Below are positions 45,416 through 55,145 of a stretch of DNA of 64,000 nt, piece after piece. This DNA is from Kordiimonas sp. SCSIO 12603 (lineage in GTDB: Bacteria > Pseudomonadota > Alphaproteobacteria > Sphingomonadales > Kordiimonadaceae), in assembly GCF_024398035.1 (NCBI RefSeq), contig NZ_CP073748.1, positions 3,525,001-3,589,000 of the forward strand, written 5' to 3'. The translations under genes were made by a program, and so were the position numbers. Position 1 is the first letter of the stretch; every line of letters starts with the position of its first letter. The notes beneath the pieces are model-generated. The model was not told the DNA's origin and ran no database searches. It saw only the letters and a list, made by a program, of their open reading frames with translations.

Positions 45416-45559
45416 GCTTTTTATCCCTCTTATTATAGGGCGTTCTTGACGCCATTCTTCATCTGTCACATAAGGGCCTGACACACAGAAGTCTAGCAAA
45501 GAAGCAGCATAGTGGCGCTGTGTTTAATCACCATGATGCGAAAAGAAAGGAGCTGTAGT

Positions 45560-47362
45560 TTGAAGATGATCGACCTGCATACCGCTCCTTTTGTTTTACT
45601 TGATGATAGCCGTCCTTCACATTCGGCAGGCAACAGTTATCTGTTTCACACTCCCGAACATATTATTCAAGCAAACGAATTTGAAGATATCCCTATAGCT
45701 CTAGCTGCAATTGATGAAGCAGTAGAGGCAGGTCTTTATACAGCCGGATGGATCAGTTACGAGGTAGGCTACTATTTTGAAAAACGGTTACACCATCTTG
45801 CTTCACGTTCAAGCGAAGAACCGCTCATATGGATGATGGTTACCTCACACCGAGATGAACTTACCCCAAAACAGGTTGAAACGCTTCTTCACACATCGCG
45901 CCGGGGTAATAAAAAATCTTTCGGAATAGAATTCAAAAAACCTGATTTAACCGAAGCTGAATACAATAAAGCAATCTCAAACATTCACGCGTTTATTGAA
46001 GCTGGCGACGTTTATCAGATAAACTATACATTTCCATTACCCGTGGAGATCAAAGGCTGCAGCATAGAGCTATATAATGAATTACGGAAAAACCAACCCG
46101 TATCATTTGGAGCTTATATTAACACTGGTGAAACAGAGGTATTATCTTTCTCCCCTGAGCTATTCCTCGAGCGCAAAGATAATCAACTAAAATCCAAACC
46201 AATGAAAGGTACTGCTGCCCGAGGGAAAGACGCCGAAGAAGATGCATCAATTGAACAGTTTCTAGTGAATGACGGCAAGTCTAGAGCTGAAAACCTTATG
46301 ATTGTCGATTTAATCCGGAACGATCTCAGCCGCATTGCAAAATCGGGTTCCGTTCAAGTCCCCAAACTCTTTGAAACAGAAAAATACAATACACTATTTC
46401 AAATGACATCAACGGTAACAGCTACCGCAATAAAAGACTTAACACCTACGCAAGCCCTCACTGCTATGTTTCCTTGCGGCTCCATAACGGGTGCTCCAAA
46501 GGTGCGTGCCATGGAAATCATTGCTGAACTGGAACCTCATGCGCGCGGCGTCTACTGTGGTTCAATTGGATATTTCCACAGTAAAAGCTGGTCTCTAAAT
46601 GTACCCATCCGGACCCTGGTAAGAAACGACGATGCCAAAAGCCGCTTAAGTGTTGGCAGTGGTATAGTGGCAGATAGCAACCCAGAGGGTGAGTATCAGG
46701 AATGCCTCCTAAAGGCTCGCTTTACCGAACGCACTGTCAACGAATTTGCTCTAATCGAAACTCTCCTTGTTGAAGAGCAAGAATGCAAAAACCTTGATCT
46801 GCATATGAAGCGTATAAAAAACAGTGCTGATTACTTCAATTTTGCGTTTCCAAAATCAGAAATAGAAAATGCCCTTAAAGGCCATGCTTCATTACTGAAT
46901 ACGAAACACAAGCTGCGCCTTCTTTTAAACAAGGCAGGCGCCTTCAGTATTTCAAGTAACAAACTTTCCGAACCTACTTCGGAAAATAGGAAGATAAAGC
47001 TATCAGAGAAGCGAACTGATTCGACTGAAGTTTTCCTACGCCATAAAACAACGAATCGCTCCCTATATAATGAAGAGTTCAAGCGTGCCATCGCTGATGG
47101 GTATCTGGATGTACTCTTTATCAACCAACATGGTTTCATTACCGAAGGCGCTATCAGCAATATTTTCGCAGAGATTGACGGGAACCTGTATACCCCACCA
47201 CTTTCAGATGGCGTTTTGCCAGGAATTCATAGAGCCTCAATGCTGGAAAACAACCTGGCAATTGTTCGTTCTCTTACCTTGAGTGACCTACAAAAGGCAG
47301 AAGCCTTATATATAGGGAACGCTGTCAGAGGCCTCCGCAAGGTCGCCATCTCGGATTTCTAA
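45560..47362 (+). CDS. pabBC: Fused aminodeoxychorismate synthase I / ADC lyase
   Basis: A 600-residue fusion for p-aminobenzoate (folate) synthesis. The N-terminal two thirds is PabB, with MKGTAARGKD near 215, LMIVDLIRNDLSRI near 250, and FPCGSITGAPKVRAMEII near 305. The C-terminal part (about 385-600) is a class IV aminotransferase-like PabC, with ITEGAISNIF and LPGIHRAS. Both catalytic steps are therefore in one chain; a separate PabA glutaminase is expected elsewhere. TTG 45560 is proposed as the start because AGGAG lies seven bases before it; ATG 45566 is farther. Confidence 0.93.
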   Translation: MKMIDLHTAPFVLLDDSRPSHSAGNSYLFHTPEHIIQANEFEDIPIALAAIDEAVEAGLYTAGWISYEVGYYFEKRLHHLASRSSEEPLIWMMVTSHRDELTPKQVETLLHTSRRGNKKSFGIEFKKPDLTEAEYNKAISNIHAFIEAGDVYQINYTFPLPVEIKGCSIELYNELRKNQPVSFGAYINTGETEVLSFSPELFLERKDNQLKSKPMKGTAARGKDAEEDASIEQFLVNDGKSRAENLMIVDLIRNDLSRIAKSGSVQVPKLFETEKYNTLFQMTSTVTATAIKDLTPTQALTAMFPCGSITGAPKVRAMEIIAELEPHARGVYCGSIGYFHSKSWSLNVPIRTLVRNDDAKSRLSVGSGIVADSNPEGEYQECLLKARFTERTVNEFALIETLLVEEQECKNLDLHMKRIKNSADYFNFAFPKSEIENALKGHASLLNTKHKLRLLLNKAGAFSISSNKLSEPTSENRKIKLSEKRTDSTEVFLRHKTTNRSLYNEEFKRAIADGYLDVLFINQHGFITEGAISNIFAEIDGNLYTPPLSDGVLPGIHRASMLENNLAIVRSLTLSDLQKAEALYIGNAVRGLRKVAISDF

Positions 47363-47525: not shown

Positions 47526-47714
47526 ATGCATTCATCTAATTCTCCTTCCTCCCTCCCTCAATCTGGAATGGATAATAGTTCTATTTCCAGTCACAGCCGA
47601 TCATTAGCGACTAAGCTTTCAGGTCATATGGGGCTGGAGAATGCAATACGTGTAAGCAAAGAGAATCAGTGGCACGGCGTGCTTGCAGCACTGCTGGAAC
47701 TGAAAGCACGTTAA
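47526..47714 (+). CDS. Small protein of 62 residues, unknown function
   Basis: A 62-residue ORF with a serine-rich N-terminus and a helical C-terminal half (ENAIRVSKENQWHGVLAALLELKAR) that looks like a conserved short-protein core. GAGG lies nine bases upstream of the ATG. There is no signal peptide or membrane segment. The gap of 163 bases to pabBC contains no terminator I can see. I recognise no family; coding status is moderately supported. Confidence 0.55.
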   Translation: MHSSNSPSSLPQSGMDNSSISSHSRSLATKLSGHMGLENAIRVSKENQWHGVLAALLELKAR

Positions 47715-47834
47715 AGTCGGACTACGTAAGGTAAAATAAACGTTAGTTATCATTTCTCGTCTTCAAGCAACAAAAATCAACCTCTGAAAAAAATGCTACC
47801 TTTAAATGCACTTATATATTGACCTTTTCGAATA
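47715..47834. other. Intergenic DNA, no feature seen
   Basis: AT-rich stretch between the small ORF and the palindrome that precedes the TonB operon leader. I see no gene, repeat or terminator in it. Confidence 0.5.
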
Positions 47835-47851
47835 ATGTAATATTATTACAT
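47835..47851. promoter_or_regulatory. 17-base palindrome upstream of the TonB operon leader
   Basis: ATGTAATA-T-TATTACAT, a perfect palindrome. It matches the pattern ATGTTATA-N-TATAACAT (Zur-type operator) at all but one symmetric position pair. It lies just ahead of the presumed promoter of the long leader and could bind a Fur-superfamily regulator. See also the sites at 54057-54112. Confidence 0.55.
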
Positions 47852-47881
47852 ATACATAACGGTCTATATTTCAGCTGTTTT

Positions 47882-48325
47882 TAGGTGCAAAATTAAACAG
47901 ATATGTGCCTAGAAACACGAAAAGTGAAATTTTTGCTTGGAATCGTGAAAGATTCTTGGATGATAGGCCCCGAGCCGGACCACCCGTCTCAACCCCGACC
48001 TGTTCGTGAAAACGGATAAGGTCATTTAAAAAGATCATCCGTGCTTAAGTATAAAAGCTCAAAGGATGGCAGAGCGGAACAAAGTAATTTGTTGAGTGGT
48101 CGGCACAATTGGGAGAGGTCGGGAAACCTTTTAAATGGAACTGCCAGTGATCTGATGAACACGTTTTGTCAGAGAGGTACGGCAGACATACTCCCAGTTT
48201 GTTAGGGTAAAGGTTTGAGTAGCATTAAATGCTCTTGAATTTTTGCAAGGTTTAATCCGCCTCAGGGTTACCTCTGGTTATTCATTTAACCGGACTAAAG
48301 GTATCTAGGAGGCTTTATAAAACCC
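47882..48325 (+). ncRNA. Candidate structured 5' leader RNA of the TonB operon
   Basis: About 450 bases without a credible gene but with many pairing elements: TAGGTGC/GTGCCTA (47882-47911); GGAATC/GATTCT (47939-47956); a GAAA-loop hairpin (47997-48023); an overlapping alternative stem ACGGAT..GGTC/GATC-ATCCGT (48012-48042); AACAAA/TTTGTT (48078-48093); a three-way junction closed by TGGGAG/CTCCCA (48110-48196) with branches AGGT/ACCT and CTGCC/GGCAG; AGCATT/AATGCT (48221-48233); and a final domain whose closing stem GCCTC/GAGGC (48259-48313) buries the AGGAGG ribosome site. It looks like a cis-regulatory RNA. No known riboswitch class is recognised. Confidence 0.55.
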
Positions 48326-48346
48326 ATGTGGGCAGAAAATGGATAA
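48326..48346 (+). CDS. Six-codon upstream ORF (MWAENG) overlapping the DUF3450 start
   Basis: ATG at 48326 opens a six-residue frame ending at TAA 48344-48346, overlapping the DUF3450 start codon (48339) in another frame. The AGGAGG at 48307-48312 is 13 bases from this ATG and 26 from the DUF3450 ATG, so ribosomes may enter here and re-initiate downstream. Inference from spacing only. Confidence 0.35.
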   Translation: MWAENG

Positions 48347-49109
48347 GGCTAAAGTGAAACGGATAGCTGTCTCTACAGCCGCAGTCGCCGCGATCCTTCT
48401 AGGAGCAACTGCTGCTAATGCACAGGAAGCTCAAGTGAAGTCGATCGTTGACGAAGTAAACGCGGCTAACCAAATCGCACAAGCTTCTCAACAGAAGATC
48501 GATGGTATCAACGACGCAACAGAAAAACTTTTTGTAGATTACAAAGGTGTTCTCAAGACAAATGCTGGCCTGCGTGCATATAACGCTCAGCAGCGTCGTG
48601 TGATTTCTCGTCAAGAAGAAGAAATCGGGAAGCTAAAAGAATCTATCGGTCAGATCGATGAGATTAAACGTCAGATCACTCCTCTGATGCTTGATATGAT
48701 CGAAGACCTTAACGAATTCGTTCAAGCGGACATCCCGTTCCTGCTTGCAGAACGTGAAGAGCGTATCGCTTCCCTACGTGAAGCTATGGATAACCCGAAC
48801 GTAAGTGACCCAGAGCGTTTCCGTGTTGTACTTGAAGCTTATAAAGCTGAAGTTCAATATGGTCGTACATATTTCGCGTATGAAGATACACTTCCAGATG
48901 GTCGTAGCGTGAACTTTGTTCGTCTTGGTCGTGTAGGTTTTTACTACCAGACTAAAGACACAACAGAGACAGCTGCCTGGAATTCTGAGACAAAATCTTG
49001 GGACATTCTAGGTGCAGATTTCACGACACCAGTTCGCCAGCTTATTCGTATGGCTCTACGCCGTACACAGACTGACGTAACTGTGCTTCCTATCTCAGCA
49101 CCGAAGTAA
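48339..49109 (+). CDS. DUF3450 periplasmic protein of the TonB operon
   Basis: A 256-residue secreted protein: signal peptide (AVSTAAVAAILLGATAANA) then a long helical coiled-coil region (about 30-110, EVNAANQIAQASQQKIDGIN...) and a C-terminal domain with RSVNFVRLGRVGFYYQTKD. DUF3450 proteins are almost always encoded at the head of operons with TolQ/ExbB/ExbD/TonB and probably act as periplasmic partners of the energised complex. Codon use (CGT for Arg, GGT) implies strong expression. The gene is 15 bases ahead of the TtpC-like gene. A structured leader precedes it. Confidence 0.9.
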   Translation: MDKAKVKRIAVSTAAVAAILLGATAANAQEAQVKSIVDEVNAANQIAQASQQKIDGINDATEKLFVDYKGVLKTNAGLRAYNAQQRRVISRQEEEIGKLKESIGQIDEIKRQITPLMLDMIEDLNEFVQADIPFLLAEREERIASLREAMDNPNVSDPERFRVVLEAYKAEVQYGRTYFAYEDTLPDGRSVNFVRLGRVGFYYQTKDTTETAAWNSETKSWDILGADFTTPVRQLIRMALRRTQTDVTVLPISAPK

Positions 49110-49124
49110 GTAGGGGAATTAGCA

Positions 49125-50477
49125 ATGAAAAAGATTATTACTTCCGCTGCTCTTCTCGCTGTAGGCCTATCGGCTTCAGTGTCTGCACAAGATGGCAGCA
49201 TGTCAGATCTTCTGAACAAGGTTCGTGAAGGTCGTGTAAGCGAAAGCGCTGAGCACAAAAAACGTGAAGCAGAGTTCCAGGCTCGTAAAGGTCAGCAACA
49301 AAAGCTTCTTACAGATGCTCGTGCTGAACAAGCTCGTCTTGAGCGTGAAAGTGCTCGTCTTGAAGAACAACGTCGTAACAATGAACAAGAAATCACACGT
49401 CAGGTTGAAATCCAGCGTGAACGTCTTGGTCAGCTAAGTGAGCTTTTCGGTGTTCTTCAGCAAAACGCTGGTGATGCAAAATCAATCATTTCTACATCAC
49501 ACGTTTCTATTGATAACCCAAACCGTCTTGCTGAAATCGACAACCTGATTTCTAAAGCACAAGAATCTTCAGAGCTTCCAACACTATCGGATATCCGTGC
49601 GTGGCCAGCTCAGATGATCCTTGAAATGATCGGTTCTTCTGAAGTTAAAAAGTTCAATCACGAAGTTCGCTTGAACGACGGTTCTACACAGAACATGGAA
49701 GTTGTTCGTATTGGTGACTTTGGCCTTGTTGGTGATGGCAAATATCTTCAGCTAACTCCAAAAGGTGTTGTTGCTGAGCTTCAACGTCAGCCTTCTGACC
49801 GTTTTACAGGCACAATTGCTCCGTTTGAGAACTCGACAAGCGGCATGCACGCTCTAGGTATTGACCCAACACGCGGTCAGCTTCTTAACCTTGAGATCGA
49901 CAAGCCAACTATTGAAGAGCGTCTAGACCAAGGTGGACCAATTGGTTACATCACTCTAGGTCTTGGTGTTATTGGTGTTATCATCGCAATCCTACAGTGG
50001 CTATACCTACTGGTAGTTGGAGGTAAAGTACGCAAACAGATCCGTTCTGAAACTGCGGACACAGGTAACCCTCTTGGCCGTGTATTAGCTGTTTACGACC
50101 AAAACCGCAGTGTTGACGTTGAAACTCTTGAGCTGAAACTTGACGAAGCAATTCTAAAAGAAACTCCTGCTCTAGAGCGTGGCCTAACAATTGTTAAGCT
50201 TATCTCTGCTGTTGCGCCTCTATTTGGTCTTCTCGGTACAGTGACTGGTATGATTGAGACATTCCAGGCTATTACACTATTCGGTGCTGGTGACCCATCA
50301 CAGATGGCTGGCGGTATTTCCGCGGCTCTTATGACTACTGTGGAAGGTCTTGTTGTAGCGATCCCAACTCTGCTTCTGCATACATTCGTATCAGGTTCCT
50401 CTAAGAGCGTTATCCACGTTCTTGAAGAGCAGTCTGCTGGTATCATTGCAGTTCACGCTGAGAAAGCGAACGGATAA
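49125..50477 (+). CDS. TtpC-like MotA/TolQ/ExbB family protein with periplasmic coiled coil
   Basis: A 450-residue inner-membrane protein: signal peptide (LLAVGLSASVSA), a periplasmic domain with a charged coiled coil (about 45-115, HKKREAEFQ...EQRRNNEQEITRQVE), then a TolQ/ExbB proton-channel domain (about 275-445) with LGLGVIGVIIAILQWLYLLV, KLISAVAPLFGLLGTVTGMIETF and the last pore helix. This layout is that of TtpC, needed by the Vibrio TonB2 system. AGGGGAA lies upstream. Its stop overlaps the exbB start (TAATG). Confidence 0.92.
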   Translation: MKKIITSAALLAVGLSASVSAQDGSMSDLLNKVREGRVSESAEHKKREAEFQARKGQQQKLLTDARAEQARLERESARLEEQRRNNEQEITRQVEIQRERLGQLSELFGVLQQNAGDAKSIISTSHVSIDNPNRLAEIDNLISKAQESSELPTLSDIRAWPAQMILEMIGSSEVKKFNHEVRLNDGSTQNMEVVRIGDFGLVGDGKYLQLTPKGVVAELQRQPSDRFTGTIAPFENSTSGMHALGIDPTRGQLLNLEIDKPTIEERLDQGGPIGYITLGLGVIGVIIAILQWLYLLVVGGKVRKQIRSETADTGNPLGRVLAVYDQNRSVDVETLELKLDEAILKETPALERGLTIVKLISAVAPLFGLLGTVTGMIETFQAITLFGAGDPSQMAGGISAALMTTVEGLVVAIPTLLLHTFVSGSSKSVIHVLEEQSAGIIAVHAEKANG

Positions 50478-51004
50478 TGCGGAGCCTTAACGACGCATTT
50501 GACGCTATCCGGGCGTTCATGGAACAGGGCGGAGACGTCTTGTTCCTGATCCTCGCGGTAACGTTCATTATGTGGGTGCTCATTGTCGAACGTATGTGGT
50601 ATTTCACGCTTGAATATAAAAAGCAGAAAAACCGCGTGATCGAAGCTTGGGAAACACGTACCGAGCGTAAATCATGGTTTGCACACAAAATTCGTACAGC
50701 CATGATTTCAGAGGTAAACCACGATCTATTCCGTGGTGTGAACCTCATTAAAACGCTCGTAGCGCTTTGTCCTCTTGTAGGACTTCTCGGTACGGTAACA
50801 GGTATGATCGAGGTGTTTGACGTTATGGGTTCACAAGGTAGTTCCAACGCACGTGCGATGGCTGCCGGTGTATCCAAAGCAACAATCCCGACAATGGCGG
50901 GTATGGTTGCTGCACTATCAGGTATTTTCCTGAGCACATATATTGAACGCCGCGCTAAACGTGAGTCAGAAAGTCTTGAAGACAGCCTGACCATGGATCA
51001 CTAA
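50477..51004 (+). CDS. exbB: ExbB-type proton channel subunit
   Basis: A 175-residue MotA/TolQ/ExbB protein with three transmembrane helices: FLILAVTFIMWVLIVERMW, then TLVALCPLVGLLGTVTGMIEVF and TIPTMAGMVAALSGIFLSTYIE. It uses the proton gradient to energise TonB. The start overlaps the TtpC-like stop by one base. The operon thus has two TolQ-type subunits, the long TtpC-like one and this standard one. Confidence 0.93.
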   Translation: MRSLNDAFDAIRAFMEQGGDVLFLILAVTFIMWVLIVERMWYFTLEYKKQKNRVIEAWETRTERKSWFAHKIRTAMISEVNHDLFRGVNLIKTLVALCPLVGLLGTVTGMIEVFDVMGSQGSSNARAMAAGVSKATIPTMAGMVAALSGIFLSTYIERRAKRESESLEDSLTMDH

Positions 51005-51027
51005 GCTGGATTTGGAGAGGAACACTA

Positions 51028-51444
51028 ATGCGCAAGTTCGCAAAAGCAGAGGAAGAAGCTGAAGTAAATATGACCCCGATGCTCGACATCGTGTTCATCA
51101 TGCTGATCTTCTTTATCGTAACTGCAACGTTCGTTAACGAATCTGGTCTCGAGATCAACAAGCCGGAGGATAACAATTCAAGTAATCCTCCACCACCAGA
51201 TGAAGATAAGCGCGCAATCGCATTTGTGATTGATGAAAACAACAGAATTACACACGATTTCCTTCGTATTGATGTATCTTCTGTTTCTTCAATCATCAAA
51301 AAAGAAAGCGTTGAGCGCCCAGAAGCTCCTGTAGTTATTCAGGCTGCTAAAGGTTCGGAGTTTGGTTTAGCTATACGTATCTATGATGCGGCTAAAGCAG
51401 TTGGTCTTGGTGATGAAAAGATCGTAATGACGCCTAAGAAGTAA
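51028..51444 (+). CDS. exbD: ExbD-type biopolymer transport protein (first copy)
   Basis: A 138-residue single-pass membrane protein. The membrane helix VNMTPMLDIVFIMLIFFIVT contains the conserved Asp essential for proton coupling. The periplasmic part starts with a proline-rich stretch (NNSSNPPPPDED) and ends in a beta-alpha domain. A GGAGAGG site precedes the ATG. It is followed by two intercistronic hairpins and a second exbD. Confidence 0.93.
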   Translation: MRKFAKAEEEAEVNMTPMLDIVFIMLIFFIVTATFVNESGLEINKPEDNNSSNPPPPDEDKRAIAFVIDENNRITHDFLRIDVSSVSSIIKKESVERPEAPVVIQAAKGSEFGLAIRIYDAAKAVGLGDEKIVMTPKK

Positions 51445-51449
51445 TCGCT

Positions 51450-51493
51450 GGCGGGAAAATTCCCGCCATCACGGCGAAGCGCCCTAAGGGGCG
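51450..51493 (+). other. Two hairpins between the exbD copies
   Basis: GGCGGGAA / TTCCCGCC (51450-51467) and CGCCC / GGGCG (51480-51493). Neither has a T-tract. They may set relative protein levels by mRNA processing or stability. Confidence 0.55.
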
Positions 51494-51507
51494 AATTGGA
51501 GAAAACC

Positions 51508-51906
51508 ATGCGTAACCACGCTCAACAAGAAGAAGATACCGAAATTAACATGACCCCGATGCTCGACATCGTGTTCATCATGTTGATCTTCTTCATCGTT
51601 ACCGCGGTATTCGTAAAGGAATCTGGGACGACCGTTATCAAACCTGAAGCAGAGACAGCTGTGAGCCTTAAACAGGTGAGCGTACTGATCGCTGTAACAG
51701 AAGATGACGAGATCCACATCAATCGGGAAGTGAAAGAGTTAGAGGAAGTTCGTACGGCCGTTGAAAAACTGCATGCGGAAAACCCAAAAGGCTCCGTTGC
51801 GATCCAGAGTGATGAAACAGCAGATGCCGTTCTGGTAATGAAAGTGTATGACGCCATCAGAGATGCTGGTGTTGAAAAAATCGCTATCGCTACGGAGGTC
51901 AAATAA
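51508..51906 (+). CDS. exbD: ExbD-type biopolymer transport protein (second copy)
   Basis: A 132-residue ExbD paralogue with the same membrane motif (INMTPMLDIVFIMLIFF) and its key Asp, and a differing periplasmic domain rich in Glu and Val. ATG 51508 follows GGAGAAA; the frame's earlier TTG is not needed. Two ExbD subunits next to each other suggest a heteromeric ExbD dimer or stoichiometric control; this is inference. Confidence 0.92.
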   Translation: MRNHAQQEEDTEINMTPMLDIVFIMLIFFIVTAVFVKESGTTVIKPEAETAVSLKQVSVLIAVTEDDEIHINREVKELEEVRTAVEKLHAENPKGSVAIQSDETADAVLVMKVYDAIRDAGVEKIAIATEVK

Positions 51907-51907
51907 C

Positions 51908-52525
51908 ATGATTACTCGGGTAGCCAGCTCACTTGTTGTCGCTTCTAGCGTTACTTTCGGTCTGTTTTTCGTAATGCATTCACTTGTTGCGGGAGACGGC
52001 GAAGTAGTATTGAACGAAGACAAAAGAGCTCGTTTCATCGATGTTGTACAGGACATCGAAGAACAACCTCCACAACGTCTGGAACGTAAAGTAGAGAAGC
52101 CACCAGAGGTGGAAGCACCTCCGCCAGAGATCGACACACCTGTTGTTGATAATTCTGGTCCAGATAAACTGAACCTATCCGTAGGTCGCGCCAATACAGC
52201 AGCAGCTGTTGATCTTGGCGGCATTGACCTTGGCCCAAGTTCAGATGGTGACTACCTTCCGCTTGTACGTGTACAGCCACAATACCCACGTCGTGCTCAA
52301 GAGCGCGGAATCGAAGGTTTTGTGATTGTGGAACTAACCGTTGCTGCTGATGGTACTGTACCACCAGAGTCAATTGTTGTGTTGCAAGCCGATCCAAAAG
52401 GTTATTTTGAACGTGCTGCTATCAAAGCTGCTCAAAAGTTCAAATATAAACCGAAGGTTATTAACGGTAAGGGCCAAGAAGTGACTGGTGTTACATACAA
52501 GTTCAGCTTCAACATGGCTCAATAA
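51908..52525 (+). CDS. tonB: TonB energy-transducing protein (main operon)
   Basis: A 205-residue protein: N-terminal membrane anchor (VASSLVVASSVTFGLFFVM), an acidic then proline-rich linker (PPQRLERKVEKPPEVEAPPPE) and a TonB C-terminal domain (about 120-205, YPRRAQERGIEGFVIVELTV, YFERAAIKAAQKFKYKPKVING). It spans the periplasm to energise outer-membrane receptors. GGAGGTC precedes the ATG. Only 1 base separates it from exbD. Confidence 0.95.
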   Translation: MITRVASSLVVASSVTFGLFFVMHSLVAGDGEVVLNEDKRARFIDVVQDIEEQPPQRLERKVEKPPEVEAPPPEIDTPVVDNSGPDKLNLSVGRANTAAAVDLGGIDLGPSSDGDYLPLVRVQPQYPRRAQERGIEGFVIVELTVAADGTVPPESIVVLQADPKGYFERAAIKAAQKFKYKPKVINGKGQEVTGVTYKFSFNMAQ

Positions 52526-52543
52526 GCGAGACAGGAAAGAGAC

Positions 52544-53947
52544 ATGAGTATCAAAAACACTCTTAAATCCCTGTCGGTAGTGGCGGTTGCAGCTGTTGCA
52601 TTTGCGACCGTCCCTATGCCGCAAGGTACACCATTTGCTGAAACAGCTTTCGCGCAAGAACAAGCTGCTAATAAGCCACGGAAAACCCGCAAAGTGCAGG
52701 CGATCCCACTTCCTTTCCAGAAAAAACTGGAAAAAATTAGCGAAGTCTTGAACCCGGAAGAGATGTCAGATGCTGAAAAGCAAGCAACTCAGACAGAGCG
52801 TCTTGCTCGCGCTTCTCAGTTGTTAGATGATGCCTACAATAGCCGCGGTGTAAATGATTACGCTAAATCTATCGTATGGCAGTATCGTGCTCAGATCGCT
52901 TTCGATCGTGAAGATACACCAGGCGCAATTAATGCTTTTGAAAACGTTCTAAAGTTCAAGGAATCTATTCCTGTAGCTCAAGAACACGGCATTATGTATA
53001 ATCTGGCACAGCTTTATTACTCCATCGAGAACTACGATAGAGCTTTGCAGTATCTGAAGGATTGGGAGCGCGAAGTTTCAGCTGTTGACCCTGCTCTCGT
53101 AGGCGTAAACCAGTTGGTCTTTATTTCTCAGGTTTACTACACTCTCAACGAATTCAATACAGCGATCACATATATTGATCGTGCTATTACTGACGCTGAG
53201 AAAGTGGACACCATCGAAGTTAAAGAAAACTGGTATGGTCTACGTCTAGCTTGCCTATGGGAACTGAAAGACTATAAACGTGCTCAGGATACATTGATCA
53301 CGCTTATCGTTAACTGGCCAGACCCAAGCTACTGGAACCAGCTCGCTGCGACGTATCAGGAACTAGGCAATGAAACAGCATCATGGTCCATTCTTGAAGC
53401 TGCCTATAAGCAGGGCTTCCTAGATGATAAACCAGCACAAATTCGTAACGTTGCGCAGATTCAAATCGCTCGTGACGCGCCAATCAAATGTGCATGGATT
53501 ATCGAAGACGCTCTAAAGGAAGAGCAGCTTGAACGCGATGCAGAAAACCTTCGTACGCTAGGTCAATGCTATATGCAGGCTGCTGAGTTTGATAAGGCAA
53601 TTGCACCTCTTACAGCTGCTGCTAAATCTGAAAATGATGGAGACTTATGGTTCCAGATTGGTCAGGTACAGCTGGCAAGTGATGACCTAACCGATGCAGT
53701 AACCTCTTTTGATAAAGCGAACAGTGAATTCACTTCTTCAAAAGATTCCAAAGCTGCTGGTAAACGTTTCTCAACTGTGATGATGAAAGCTCAGGCTCTG
53801 ATTGAACTTAAACGTTTTAAAGAAGCTAAAACCGCTTTCGCTGAAGCAAGTAAAATTGCGAAGACTTCACGTCAACGCAGGCAAATTTCTCAGTGGAGAG
53901 GTTACCTCAAAGCTGAAGAAGCTCGTGAAGCAACGCTTAAAGGCTAA
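52544..53947 (+). CDS. TPR-repeat periplasmic protein of the TonB operon
   Basis: A 467-residue protein with a signal peptide (VVAVAAVAFATVPMPQG...FA) and tandem tetratricopeptide repeats from about 90 to 440 (for example YAKSIVWQYRAQIAFDREDT, AITYIDRAITDAEKVDTIEV). Such a TPR protein closes many TonB/DUF3450 operons and probably scaffolds the complex in the periplasm. AGGAAAGAG lies upstream of the ATG. Codon bias is strong, as in the rest of the operon. A strong terminator follows. Confidence 0.9.
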   Translation: MSIKNTLKSLSVVAVAAVAFATVPMPQGTPFAETAFAQEQAANKPRKTRKVQAIPLPFQKKLEKISEVLNPEEMSDAEKQATQTERLARASQLLDDAYNSRGVNDYAKSIVWQYRAQIAFDREDTPGAINAFENVLKFKESIPVAQEHGIMYNLAQLYYSIENYDRALQYLKDWEREVSAVDPALVGVNQLVFISQVYYTLNEFNTAITYIDRAITDAEKVDTIEVKENWYGLRLACLWELKDYKRAQDTLITLIVNWPDPSYWNQLAATYQELGNETASWSILEAAYKQGFLDDKPAQIRNVAQIQIARDAPIKCAWIIEDALKEEQLERDAENLRTLGQCYMQAAEFDKAIAPLTAAAKSENDGDLWFQIGQVQLASDDLTDAVTSFDKANSEFTSSKDSKAAGKRFSTVMMKAQALIELKRFKEAKTAFAEASKIAKTSRQRRQISQWRGYLKAEEAREATLKG

Positions 53948-53968
53948 TCTTCATTACATAATGATTAA

Positions 53969-53996
53969 AACGGCGTCCTTTGGGCGCCGTTTTTTT
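53969..53996 (+). terminator. Intrinsic terminator of the main TonB operon
   Basis: Stem AACGGCG / CGCCGTT, extended by CC/GG, with a T-tract of seven. It separates the main operon from the tonB-exbD satellite. Confidence 0.93.
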
Positions 53997-54056
53997 ATGT
54001 CGATTGTTCCCCTTCTTCCTAACTCTTTTCACATCATAAACATACTACACTCAAAT

Positions 54057-54112
54057 AGTTATATTATAACTTTACATAATCTTTTGATTTGATATTGTTA
54101 TACTATAACAAT
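54057..54112. promoter_or_regulatory. Two Zur-like palindromes before the satellite tonB-exbD pair
   Basis: AGTTATA-T-TATAACT (54057-54071) and ATTGTTATA-C-TATAACAAT (54094-54112) share the core GTTATA-N-TATAAC, 39 bases between centres. This core equals the gammaproteobacterial Zur (zinc uptake regulator) operator core as I remember it. The second copy ends 2 bases before the ribosome site and overlaps the promoter zone. Zinc repression is inferred from this likeness only. Confidence 0.65.
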
Positions 54113-54126
54113 CCAGGAGCAAACTA

Positions 54127-54729
54127 ATGAAGATAGGGAAATACATACCAATCACAGCGACAGCCATCACAACCACCAGCGGCTTATTCTTTCTTATGCA
54201 AAGCTTAGTCGCTGACAATGAAATACAGGTTGATCAGAGAGAGCCTGTACGCATTATTGATTTTGTACAAGCTATCGAGGAGCCAGAGGTTTCACTCACC
54301 GACCGAACAATTGAACCTCCTGTTGAAATAACCCCTCCTCCTCCAAGAGTTGCCCCCTTACCAACAGATACAGAAGGCAATCCAAGCATCAATATTCCTA
54401 CTGGCCCACCACCCCTTCCTGGTCCACCAGAGGGGCCTCAAATAGGCGGTTATACAGATGGTGCTCAAATACCTCTAGTACGTATACAGGCAAGCTACCC
54501 AAGAAAGGCATTAGAGCGCGGTATCGCTGGCTGGGCTGTTGTTGCTTTCCGCATTGATCCATCAGGTACGGTGCAAGACCCAGAAATTATCGAAGCAGAA
54601 CCTGTAGGCTATTTTGAACGGGCAACTCTAAAGGCCATAAAGAAGTTTAGATACAAGCCAAAAGTTATCAATGGCCAAGCTGTGGAATCTTTCGGTCAGT
54701 TCAGAATGGTGTTTAATTTAGATGAATAA
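54127..54729 (+). CDS. tonB: TonB protein of the satellite operon
   Basis: A 200-residue TonB paralogue: N-terminal anchor (ATAITTTSGLFFLMQSLV), proline-rich linker (ITPPPPRVAP, then GPPPLPGPPEGPQ) and a C-terminal TonB domain (about 115-198, YPRKALERGIAGWAVVAFRI, YFERATLKAIKKFRYKPKVING). It is clearly related to the TonB encoded at 51908-52525. AGGAG precedes the ATG. It lies in its own, separately controlled unit with an exbD and no exbB. Confidence 0.93.
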   Translation: MKIGKYIPITATAITTTSGLFFLMQSLVADNEIQVDQREPVRIIDFVQAIEEPEVSLTDRTIEPPVEITPPPPRVAPLPTDTEGNPSINIPTGPPPLPGPPEGPQIGGYTDGAQIPLVRIQASYPRKALERGIAGWAVVAFRIDPSGTVQDPEIIEAEPVGYFERATLKAIKKFRYKPKVINGQAVESFGQFRMVFNLDE

Positions 54730-54743
54730 GGGCCGAGGGAATT

Positions 54744-55145
54744 ATGCGATATAAATCAAAACAAACTGCTAGCCGTGTTGATATGACTCCTATGTTAGAT
54801 ATTGTCTTCATCATGTTGATTTTCTTCATCGTAACAGCAACTTTCCTTAAGGAAACAGGTGTTACTGTACAAAGGCCGGAAGGCATAGCCAAAGCGCCTG
54901 ATAAAGAACAACAGGCCTTGGTATTTCACGTTGAAGCAGACAATCGACTTTCACTGAACGGCAGGAATATCGATATCTGGTCAGCTGAAGCTTTAGTAAA
55001 AGAAGCCATAACCATAGATCCGGAAACAGCTGTTACCATTAACCTAAAGGAAGGAGCAGATATGAAAACTTTCATGCGTATCTATGACGGCCTTCGAAAG
55101 GTTGGCGTGCCCAAATATAGACTGCCTGTCCTGACCCACTCATAA
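54744..55145 (+). CDS. exbD: ExbD protein of the satellite operon
   Basis: A 133-residue third ExbD paralogue. The membrane motif VDMTPMLDIVFIMLIFFIVT with the key Asp is intact. The periplasmic part differs from the other two (LKETGVTVQRPEGIAK...). With the upstream tonB it forms a two-gene unit that lacks an ExbB, so it must use an ExbB or TolQ from elsewhere, most simply those of the main operon. Terminator follows 3 bases after the stop. Confidence 0.93.
   Translation: MRYKSKQTASRVDMTPMLDIVFIMLIFFIVTATFLKETGVTVQRPEGIAKAPDKEQQALVFHVEADNRLSLNGRNIDIWSAEALVKEAITIDPETAVTINLKEGADMKTFMRIYDGLRKVGVPKYRLPVLTHS

Follow-up and report, generated by a model that had tools for sequence, protein, structure and literature searches.

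A conserved structured RNA leader precedes ttpB in Kordiimonadaceae and may control translation of a TonB2-type operon

In the 64-kb stretch of a Kordiimonas genome that we analysed (the window), the DNA adjoining the 5′ side of ttpB carries a leader that comparison between species indicates is a real structured RNA with a fold kept by evolution. We consider it fairly likely that this leader of approximately 370 nt (approximately 47970 to 48338) acts in cis, folds in conserved domains and sets or switches the initiation of ttpB translation. Its structure, conservation and fixed place are documented below, and it is the regulation that we infer. The RNA would fold into P3 with P3a, P4, P5 and P6, into P7 with P8 and P9, and into P10/P11 plus P12 (Table 1). 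These domains would present or hold back the ribosome-binding site (RBS) of ttpB, and setting or switching initiation at this point would affect the whole TonB2-type operon. Candidate signals are a small molecule, an ion or a protein, and a conserved 5′ block would serve as the promoter/operator that feeds the leader.

Table 1 Features of the ttpB leader and the following operon, in window coordinates
Feature	Position	Strand	Evidence
Sigma-70-like promoter, TTGACC-16-TATTAT (candidate)	47819..47846	+	Pattern scan
Most conserved 5′ block: A/T tract, CTTGG-N14-CTTGG, ATGATAGG	47926..47967	+	Alignments
P3 domain	47974..48105	+	Arm-swap, pair counts, tree counts
P3	47974-47983/48096-48105	+	Arm-swap z −7.5, 0/2000 permutations
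P3a, inside P3	47984-47990/48070-48077	+	z −5.0, 0/2000
P4 (stem A of the initial annotation)	47997-48007/48012-48023	+	z −5.8, 0/2000
P5/P5b	48034-48071	+	P5 z −6.4, 0/2000; P5b z −7.8 in blind scan
P6	48079-48084/48089-48094	+	z −6.1, 0/2000
P7 domain (P7 encloses P8 and P9/P9b)	48106..48199	+	Arm-swap, pair counts
P7	48106-48115/48190-48199	+	z −5.9, 0/2000
P8, weak	Inside P7 domain	+	z −1.7, 106/2000
P9/P9b	48139-48188	+	P9 z −5.5, 0/2000; P9b z −3.3, 1/2000
P10, encloses P11	48207-48214/48241-48248	+	z −5.0, 0/2000
P11	48216-48224/48229-48238	+	z −6.4, 0/2000
P12	48257-48264/48308-48315	+	z −5.8, 0/2000
P12b, inner hairpin of P12	48274-48281/48286-48293	+	z −8.1 in blind scan
Near-invariant RBS segment AAACCCATGTGGGCAGAAA and ttpB start codon	48320..48341	+	Alignments
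DUF3450 gene = ttpB, operon gene 1	48339..49109	+	PF11932, E 2e-70
Remaining TonB2-type operon	49125..55145	+	Pfam matches for 49125-54729

Upstream of the leader lie a chorismate-binding/aminotransferase gene (45512-47362), which we take to be pabBC, and a 62-aa ORF (47526-47714), followed by 624 nt without any ORF of at least 60 aa and then by the DUF3450 gene. The initial annotation had described an untranslated leader here, and 47882-48338 indeed contains no ORF of at least 60 aa. A six-codon frame (ATG TGG GCA GAA AAT GGA TAA, 48326-48346) overlaps the ttpB start; it is probably not a conserved upstream ORF, because several relatives have AAG or a similar triplet in place of its ATG. In four other families of the order, look-alikes of the 62-aa ORF sit at the corresponding position (loci L089, L099, L106 and L123), where they share, by eye, a motif like LA.QLIRHLG..GA..TC.EN.W.GVL.A and are directly preceded by an Rfam c-di-GMP-I riboswitch. 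On the other side of the leader, Pfam matches after ttpB comprise two MotA/ExbB proteins, two ExbD proteins, TonB, a TPR protein and a second TonB (49125-54729); the last ORF (54744-55145) was identified as ExbD-like by eye in the ORF list, outside the Pfam scan. The accessible text of a study of Vibrio vulnificus (PMC6957404) states that TtpB2 carries DUF3450, that ttpB2 is the first gene of the tonB2 operon and that siderophore iron transport requires the first and last genes of this tonB2-type operon. By analogy with that text (PMC6957404), the first MotA/ExbB protein would be TtpC-like and the TPR protein TtpD-like.

The region 47882-48345, in which many complementary segments had been noticed before, folds with a minimum free energy (MFE) of −146.1 kcal/mol, compared with −119.9 ± 5.9 kcal/mol for 100 dinucleotide shuffles (z −4.45), and was more stable than 100 of the 100; its last 360 nt gave a z of −3.56. 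The mean z of 59 control windows from the same 64 kb was −0.94 (s.d. 1.37), with five of these 59 below −3, so that folding energy by itself supports structure only moderately.

We compared 24 Kordiimonadaceae leaders by an arm-swap test, in which helix arms paired within a species are set against arms swapped between species; this test depends less on alignment, and its permutations, including those of the blind scan described below, do not preserve phylogeny. Helices P3, P3a, P4, P5, P6, P7, P9, P10, P11 and P12 each gave 0 of 2000 permutations. The 250 random arm pairs had a mean z of 0.09 with two at z ≤ −3, one of which (z −8.1, left in the random set) may be the real helix P12b. A blind scan over 5,253 segment pairs yielded 35 at z ≤ −4 versus 2 at z ≥ +4, with P3, P3a, P4, P5, P5b, P6, P7, P9, P10, P11, P12 and P12b at or near the top. 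Some of the 35 lie outside the helix model, for example 47966-47973 with 48122-48129, which could be a pseudoknot or could reflect the split into two main sequence groups.

Pair and tree counts were taken from a second approach, a covariance model of the 5′ domain built from seven close leaders, which matched all 27 loci that it was given, several of them with only the model ends aligned. In its alignment, which is fitted to the structure so that the counts rest on that fit, 88.9% of cells are paired, 31 of 37 pairs have both-side changes, 125 cells carry such changes (40 ± 6 when shuffled, 20-37 with slid partners) and the tree count finds 82 kept double substitutions versus 8-16 with slid partners. 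An R-scape-like column-pair test with a tree null returned no significant pairs on cruder alignments from a structure-aware aligner. RNAalifold gave a weak result with a MAFFT alignment (−10.9 kcal/mol; double changes in 5 of 32 pairs) because helix lengths differ, and the structure-aware aligner was written for that reason; on its alignments 34 pairs showed at least three double substitutions, a mixture of real helices and spurious pairs. Covariation is present across relatives, and the leader contains a conserved domain with covariation support, as a riboswitch does. Conserved paired helices from 47974 onward also argue against a transcription start downstream of 48200.

The initial annotation had proposed that the leader switches between two mutually exclusive stems, A and B. 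Stem A, our P4, is real: eight of its nine tested pairs have an ensemble probability of 0.9-1.0 and the ninth 0.53, its arm-swap z is −5.8, and it is a peripheral hairpin that varies in length between species. The two arms of stem B are complementary in sequence (CGGAT/ATCCG), but the five pairs have an ensemble probability of 0.00 in four of four fragments, and the arms pair no better within than between the 24 species' leaders (z −0.4, 673/2000). Because stem B is unpopulated in the ensemble and has no cross-species support, we rejected the stem A/stem B switch. The long-range pairing of UUUUUGCUU with GGGCAGAAA in the MFE structure was likewise dropped, as it showed no covariation in the arm-swap test. 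A three-way junction described in the same annotation stands as far as its closing helix P7 (48110-48115/48191-48196; TGGGAG/CTCCCA) and P9 are concerned, whereas P8 is weak.

Near-invariant unpaired segments (AGATC, ACGGGAAA, AGGGTAAAGG and AAGGTTTAATCC) separate the covarying helices of variable length. Such an arrangement speaks for a metabolite- or ion-binding riboswitch, a narrower version of our preferred reading, in which the segments would form the aptamer and the 3′ domain would set access to the RBS, as does the fixed place before one operon with one strong copy per genome. We nevertheless hold this to be possible with somewhat less than even chances: neither stem B nor UUUUUGCUU/GGGCAGAAA covaries, so that no alternative pairing is supported; a single operon context gives no clue to a ligand; and approximately 370 nt is long for a riboswitch. 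The same facts that favour a riboswitch would also suit a protein-responsive leader, in which ttpB translation is repressed or activated when the RNA is bound by an operon product or a regulator, and control of a leader by its own gene products is common among multi-subunit complexes. This reading strikes us as rather doubtful, however, since the Pfam-scanned operon products (TtpB and those of 49125-54729) include no known RNA-binding domain and a simple protein site needs no large invariant segments. A passive leader, whose structure only protects or positions the mRNA or fixes a constant rate of translation, is favoured by the lack of support for any alternative fold; yet we hold it to be unlikely, as the near-invariant unpaired segments and the conservation up to the start codon exceed the needs of stability.

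The Shine–Dalgarno-like GGGCAG before ttpB is weak by eye. The proposal that the final domain buries the RBS fares well in one respect, the GGG before the start codon being predicted paired (mean 0.76 over 27 leaders), but the partner of this GGG differs between species. A CCC/GGG mini-hairpin before the start codon is possible but weak (z −2.2, 19/2000). Pairing of the GGG with GGCCCCGAG from the 5′ end was rejected: it is the top partner in 10 of 27 leaders, with a value below 0.5 in two of these, and is absent from the 35 top pairs of the blind scan. The last three bases of the 27 leaders, which are the start codon in 24 of them, are predicted open (paired 0.06). We found no convincing intrinsic terminator in the leader, only one weak site (48262-48277) compared with 1.1 ± 1.2 in shuffles. 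Because near-invariant sequence reaches the start codon and no convincing terminator is present, the leader most likely acts on ttpB translation rather than on transcription. By eye, the ttpB start in loci L143, L144 and L146, from another alphaproteobacterial order, lies after a long leader and inside an inverted repeat (CATCGTC..GRCGATG); in L143 and L146 a start codon placed in this way would fit translational control.

The 5′ block has the pattern AAATTTTTGCTTGG-N14-CTTGGATGATAGG, and the 19-nt step between its two CTTGG-like boxes is constant, by eye, in leaders of families f1, f6, f7, f2 and f3. The sequence between the boxes changes, and f2 and f7 have lost the P2 pairing. Pairings P1 and P2 in this block were rejected, as the arm-swap test on 24 leaders gave z values of 0.1 and 0.7, respectively, that is, no RNA-level covariation, and the tree count for P2 found no double substitutions and 11 breaking changes. 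Given this lack of covariation and the fixed spacing, the block is probably promoter/operator DNA rather than RNA, in which case the RNA would start near 47970, at P3. It includes promoter-like elements (a T-tract, a −35-like CTTGGA and a −10-like GATGAT), and with up to three mismatches allowed it has one match in its own genome. The sigma-70-like pattern further upstream is weak alone, with one occurrence in the region versus an average of 2.5 in shuffles; a TTGAC..(T/C)ATTAT box sits at its position in many Kordiimonas relatives (27-leader alignment, by eye), and if this promoter is used, the 5′ block would lie inside the RNA. A near-palindrome, ATGTAATATTATTACAT (47835-47855), overlaps the upstream −10 box and could be an operator; by eye, its TGTTAYATTATTACAT variants occur in Kordiimonas relatives and TGTTATATTGTAACA in locus L090.

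Of 98 relatives searched at the DNA level, 27 genomes gave a match (26 from the same family), and the leader of G016 is 99% identical over 457 nt. DUF3450 lies directly downstream in 27 of the 27 loci checked. The self-contained domains and the promoter-like block directly upstream of them might suggest a separate trans-acting small RNA that precedes ttpB by chance. This is very improbable, because DUF3450 follows in every one of these loci, conservation continues into the RBS segment and start codon, and no convincing terminator is present. A cis-acting leader that controls ttpB remains our preferred reading. When named genomes were scanned with the pattern, 28 stretches matched, of which we took 25 as real (Kordiimonas, Pseudokordiimonas, Eilatimonas, Iodidimonas muriae, Alpha proteobacterium Q-1 and MAGs). 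The Kordiimonas matches include K. laminariae strain 5E331 (L042). In 23 of these 25 the start of a DUF3450 match lies 367-472 nt downstream, on the same strand. The locus edge truncates the other two, whose whole-genome twins, L015 and L011, carry DUF3450. The leader thus holds a fixed position directly upstream of one gene. The remaining three stretches, in Bacteroidetes (L045, L047 and L057), were dropped as chance matches because their loci contain no DUF3450; the L045 match lies inside an ORF, and no ORF covers the other two. Viral contigs gave no match to the leader pattern.

The 5′-domain model matched 27 of 29 genomes of the family, each with a single strong copy; in G024 there is also a second match at E 0.09. 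As for the other two, G010 (83% complete) has neither a leader match nor a DUF3450 match, and G025 has DUF3450 and a diverged leader (R1 E 0.0011). Across the order the model matched 34 of 147 genomes: the 27 of the family, four of f6, the family of Iodidimonas muriae (G045, G050, G054 and G061), and three that we took as chance. In the last group, the G055 match (L079) is antisense within a 395-aa ORF with DUF3450 on another contig, G060 has no DUF3450, and in G492 DUF3450 is again on another contig. The P12 hairpin is part of the MFE structure in four of four f6 leaders, and three of the four also have a P7-like helix formed by the GGAGAG stretch; the Iodidimonas-family relatives appear to keep both leader ends and, probably, P7 and P12. 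Similar ends (the 5′ block and an CCTATGGGAAGA-type RBS segment) are seen by eye in f2 and f7. A P7-domain model, R2 (automatic RNAalifold structure, 11 pairs), matched 20 of 27 leader loci; among 21 further sources it matched only the window itself, missing the other 20, which include the diverged own-family loci L083 and L100, and it reached none of the f6, f2 and f7 leaders. Homology of the leader across the order is accordingly suggestive only, a lead rather than a result.

DUF3450 itself has a match in 82 of the 147 order genomes (74 above its cut-off), and in a sample of the class 19 of 289 genomes, our own included, have it at E ≤ 1e-20. In f8 the ttpB leaders are long, with a CTTGWAA promoter-like box 341-373 nt before the end of the start codon in 21 of 22, and the Kordiimonas fold is not recognisable in them. 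These f8 leaders (L089, L096, L097, L113-L119, L126, L127, L129, L130 and L133-L139) end in GTAGGAAGA..ATG. It is a tentative idea, more doubtful than probable, that the leaders form an unrecognised class of large riboswitch that is old, is shared in diverged form by several families of the order and controls the uptake motor (ttpB-ttpC-exbBD-tonB) rather than one receptor.

Rfam 15 offered no family at gathering score in the window, in the loci of 14 relatives or, in 20 further loci, within 430 nt upstream of DUF3450. Permissive searches gave chance-like matches only, the lowest E being 0.0033 for a microRNA model in one of 14 sources (31.8 bits against a gathering score of 90). The initial annotation's call of an unrecognised cis-regulatory leader holds in part: the covariation, the fixed place, the conservation up to the start codon and the lack of an Rfam family speak for it, and the stem A/stem B switch falls away. 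It is uncommon for a large and highly conserved RNA to lack an assigned family, and complexity of this kind is often a sign of a specific biochemical role. The leader probably controls how much of the outer-membrane uptake machinery is made, and if it is a true switch, the uptake that relies on this TonB system would pass through one RNA checkpoint. The consensus helices provide a ready model of its structure.

As judged from its sequence, the ttpB leader would be a cis-regulatory leader, a known kind of element, and we found no earlier description of this member in the literature searched, which had most subscription papers outside its coverage. The c-di-GMP-I riboswitch (RF01051, RF03167) occupies the same neighbourhood in four other families of the order, before the small ORF that lies ahead of the ttpB leader; neither model matches the ttpB leader or the window. 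The V. vulnificus tonB2 operon is of the same type and also begins with ttpB (DUF3450), and there the accessible text of PMC6957404 places a Fur box and a promoter before ttpB2 and mentions no leader RNA. Compared with riboswitches and other cis-regulatory leaders, the ttpB leader differs in that it matches no Rfam 15 family, and it shares with them a long 5′ leader, covarying helices, near-invariant junction segments, a place beside a transport operon and conservation up to the RBS.
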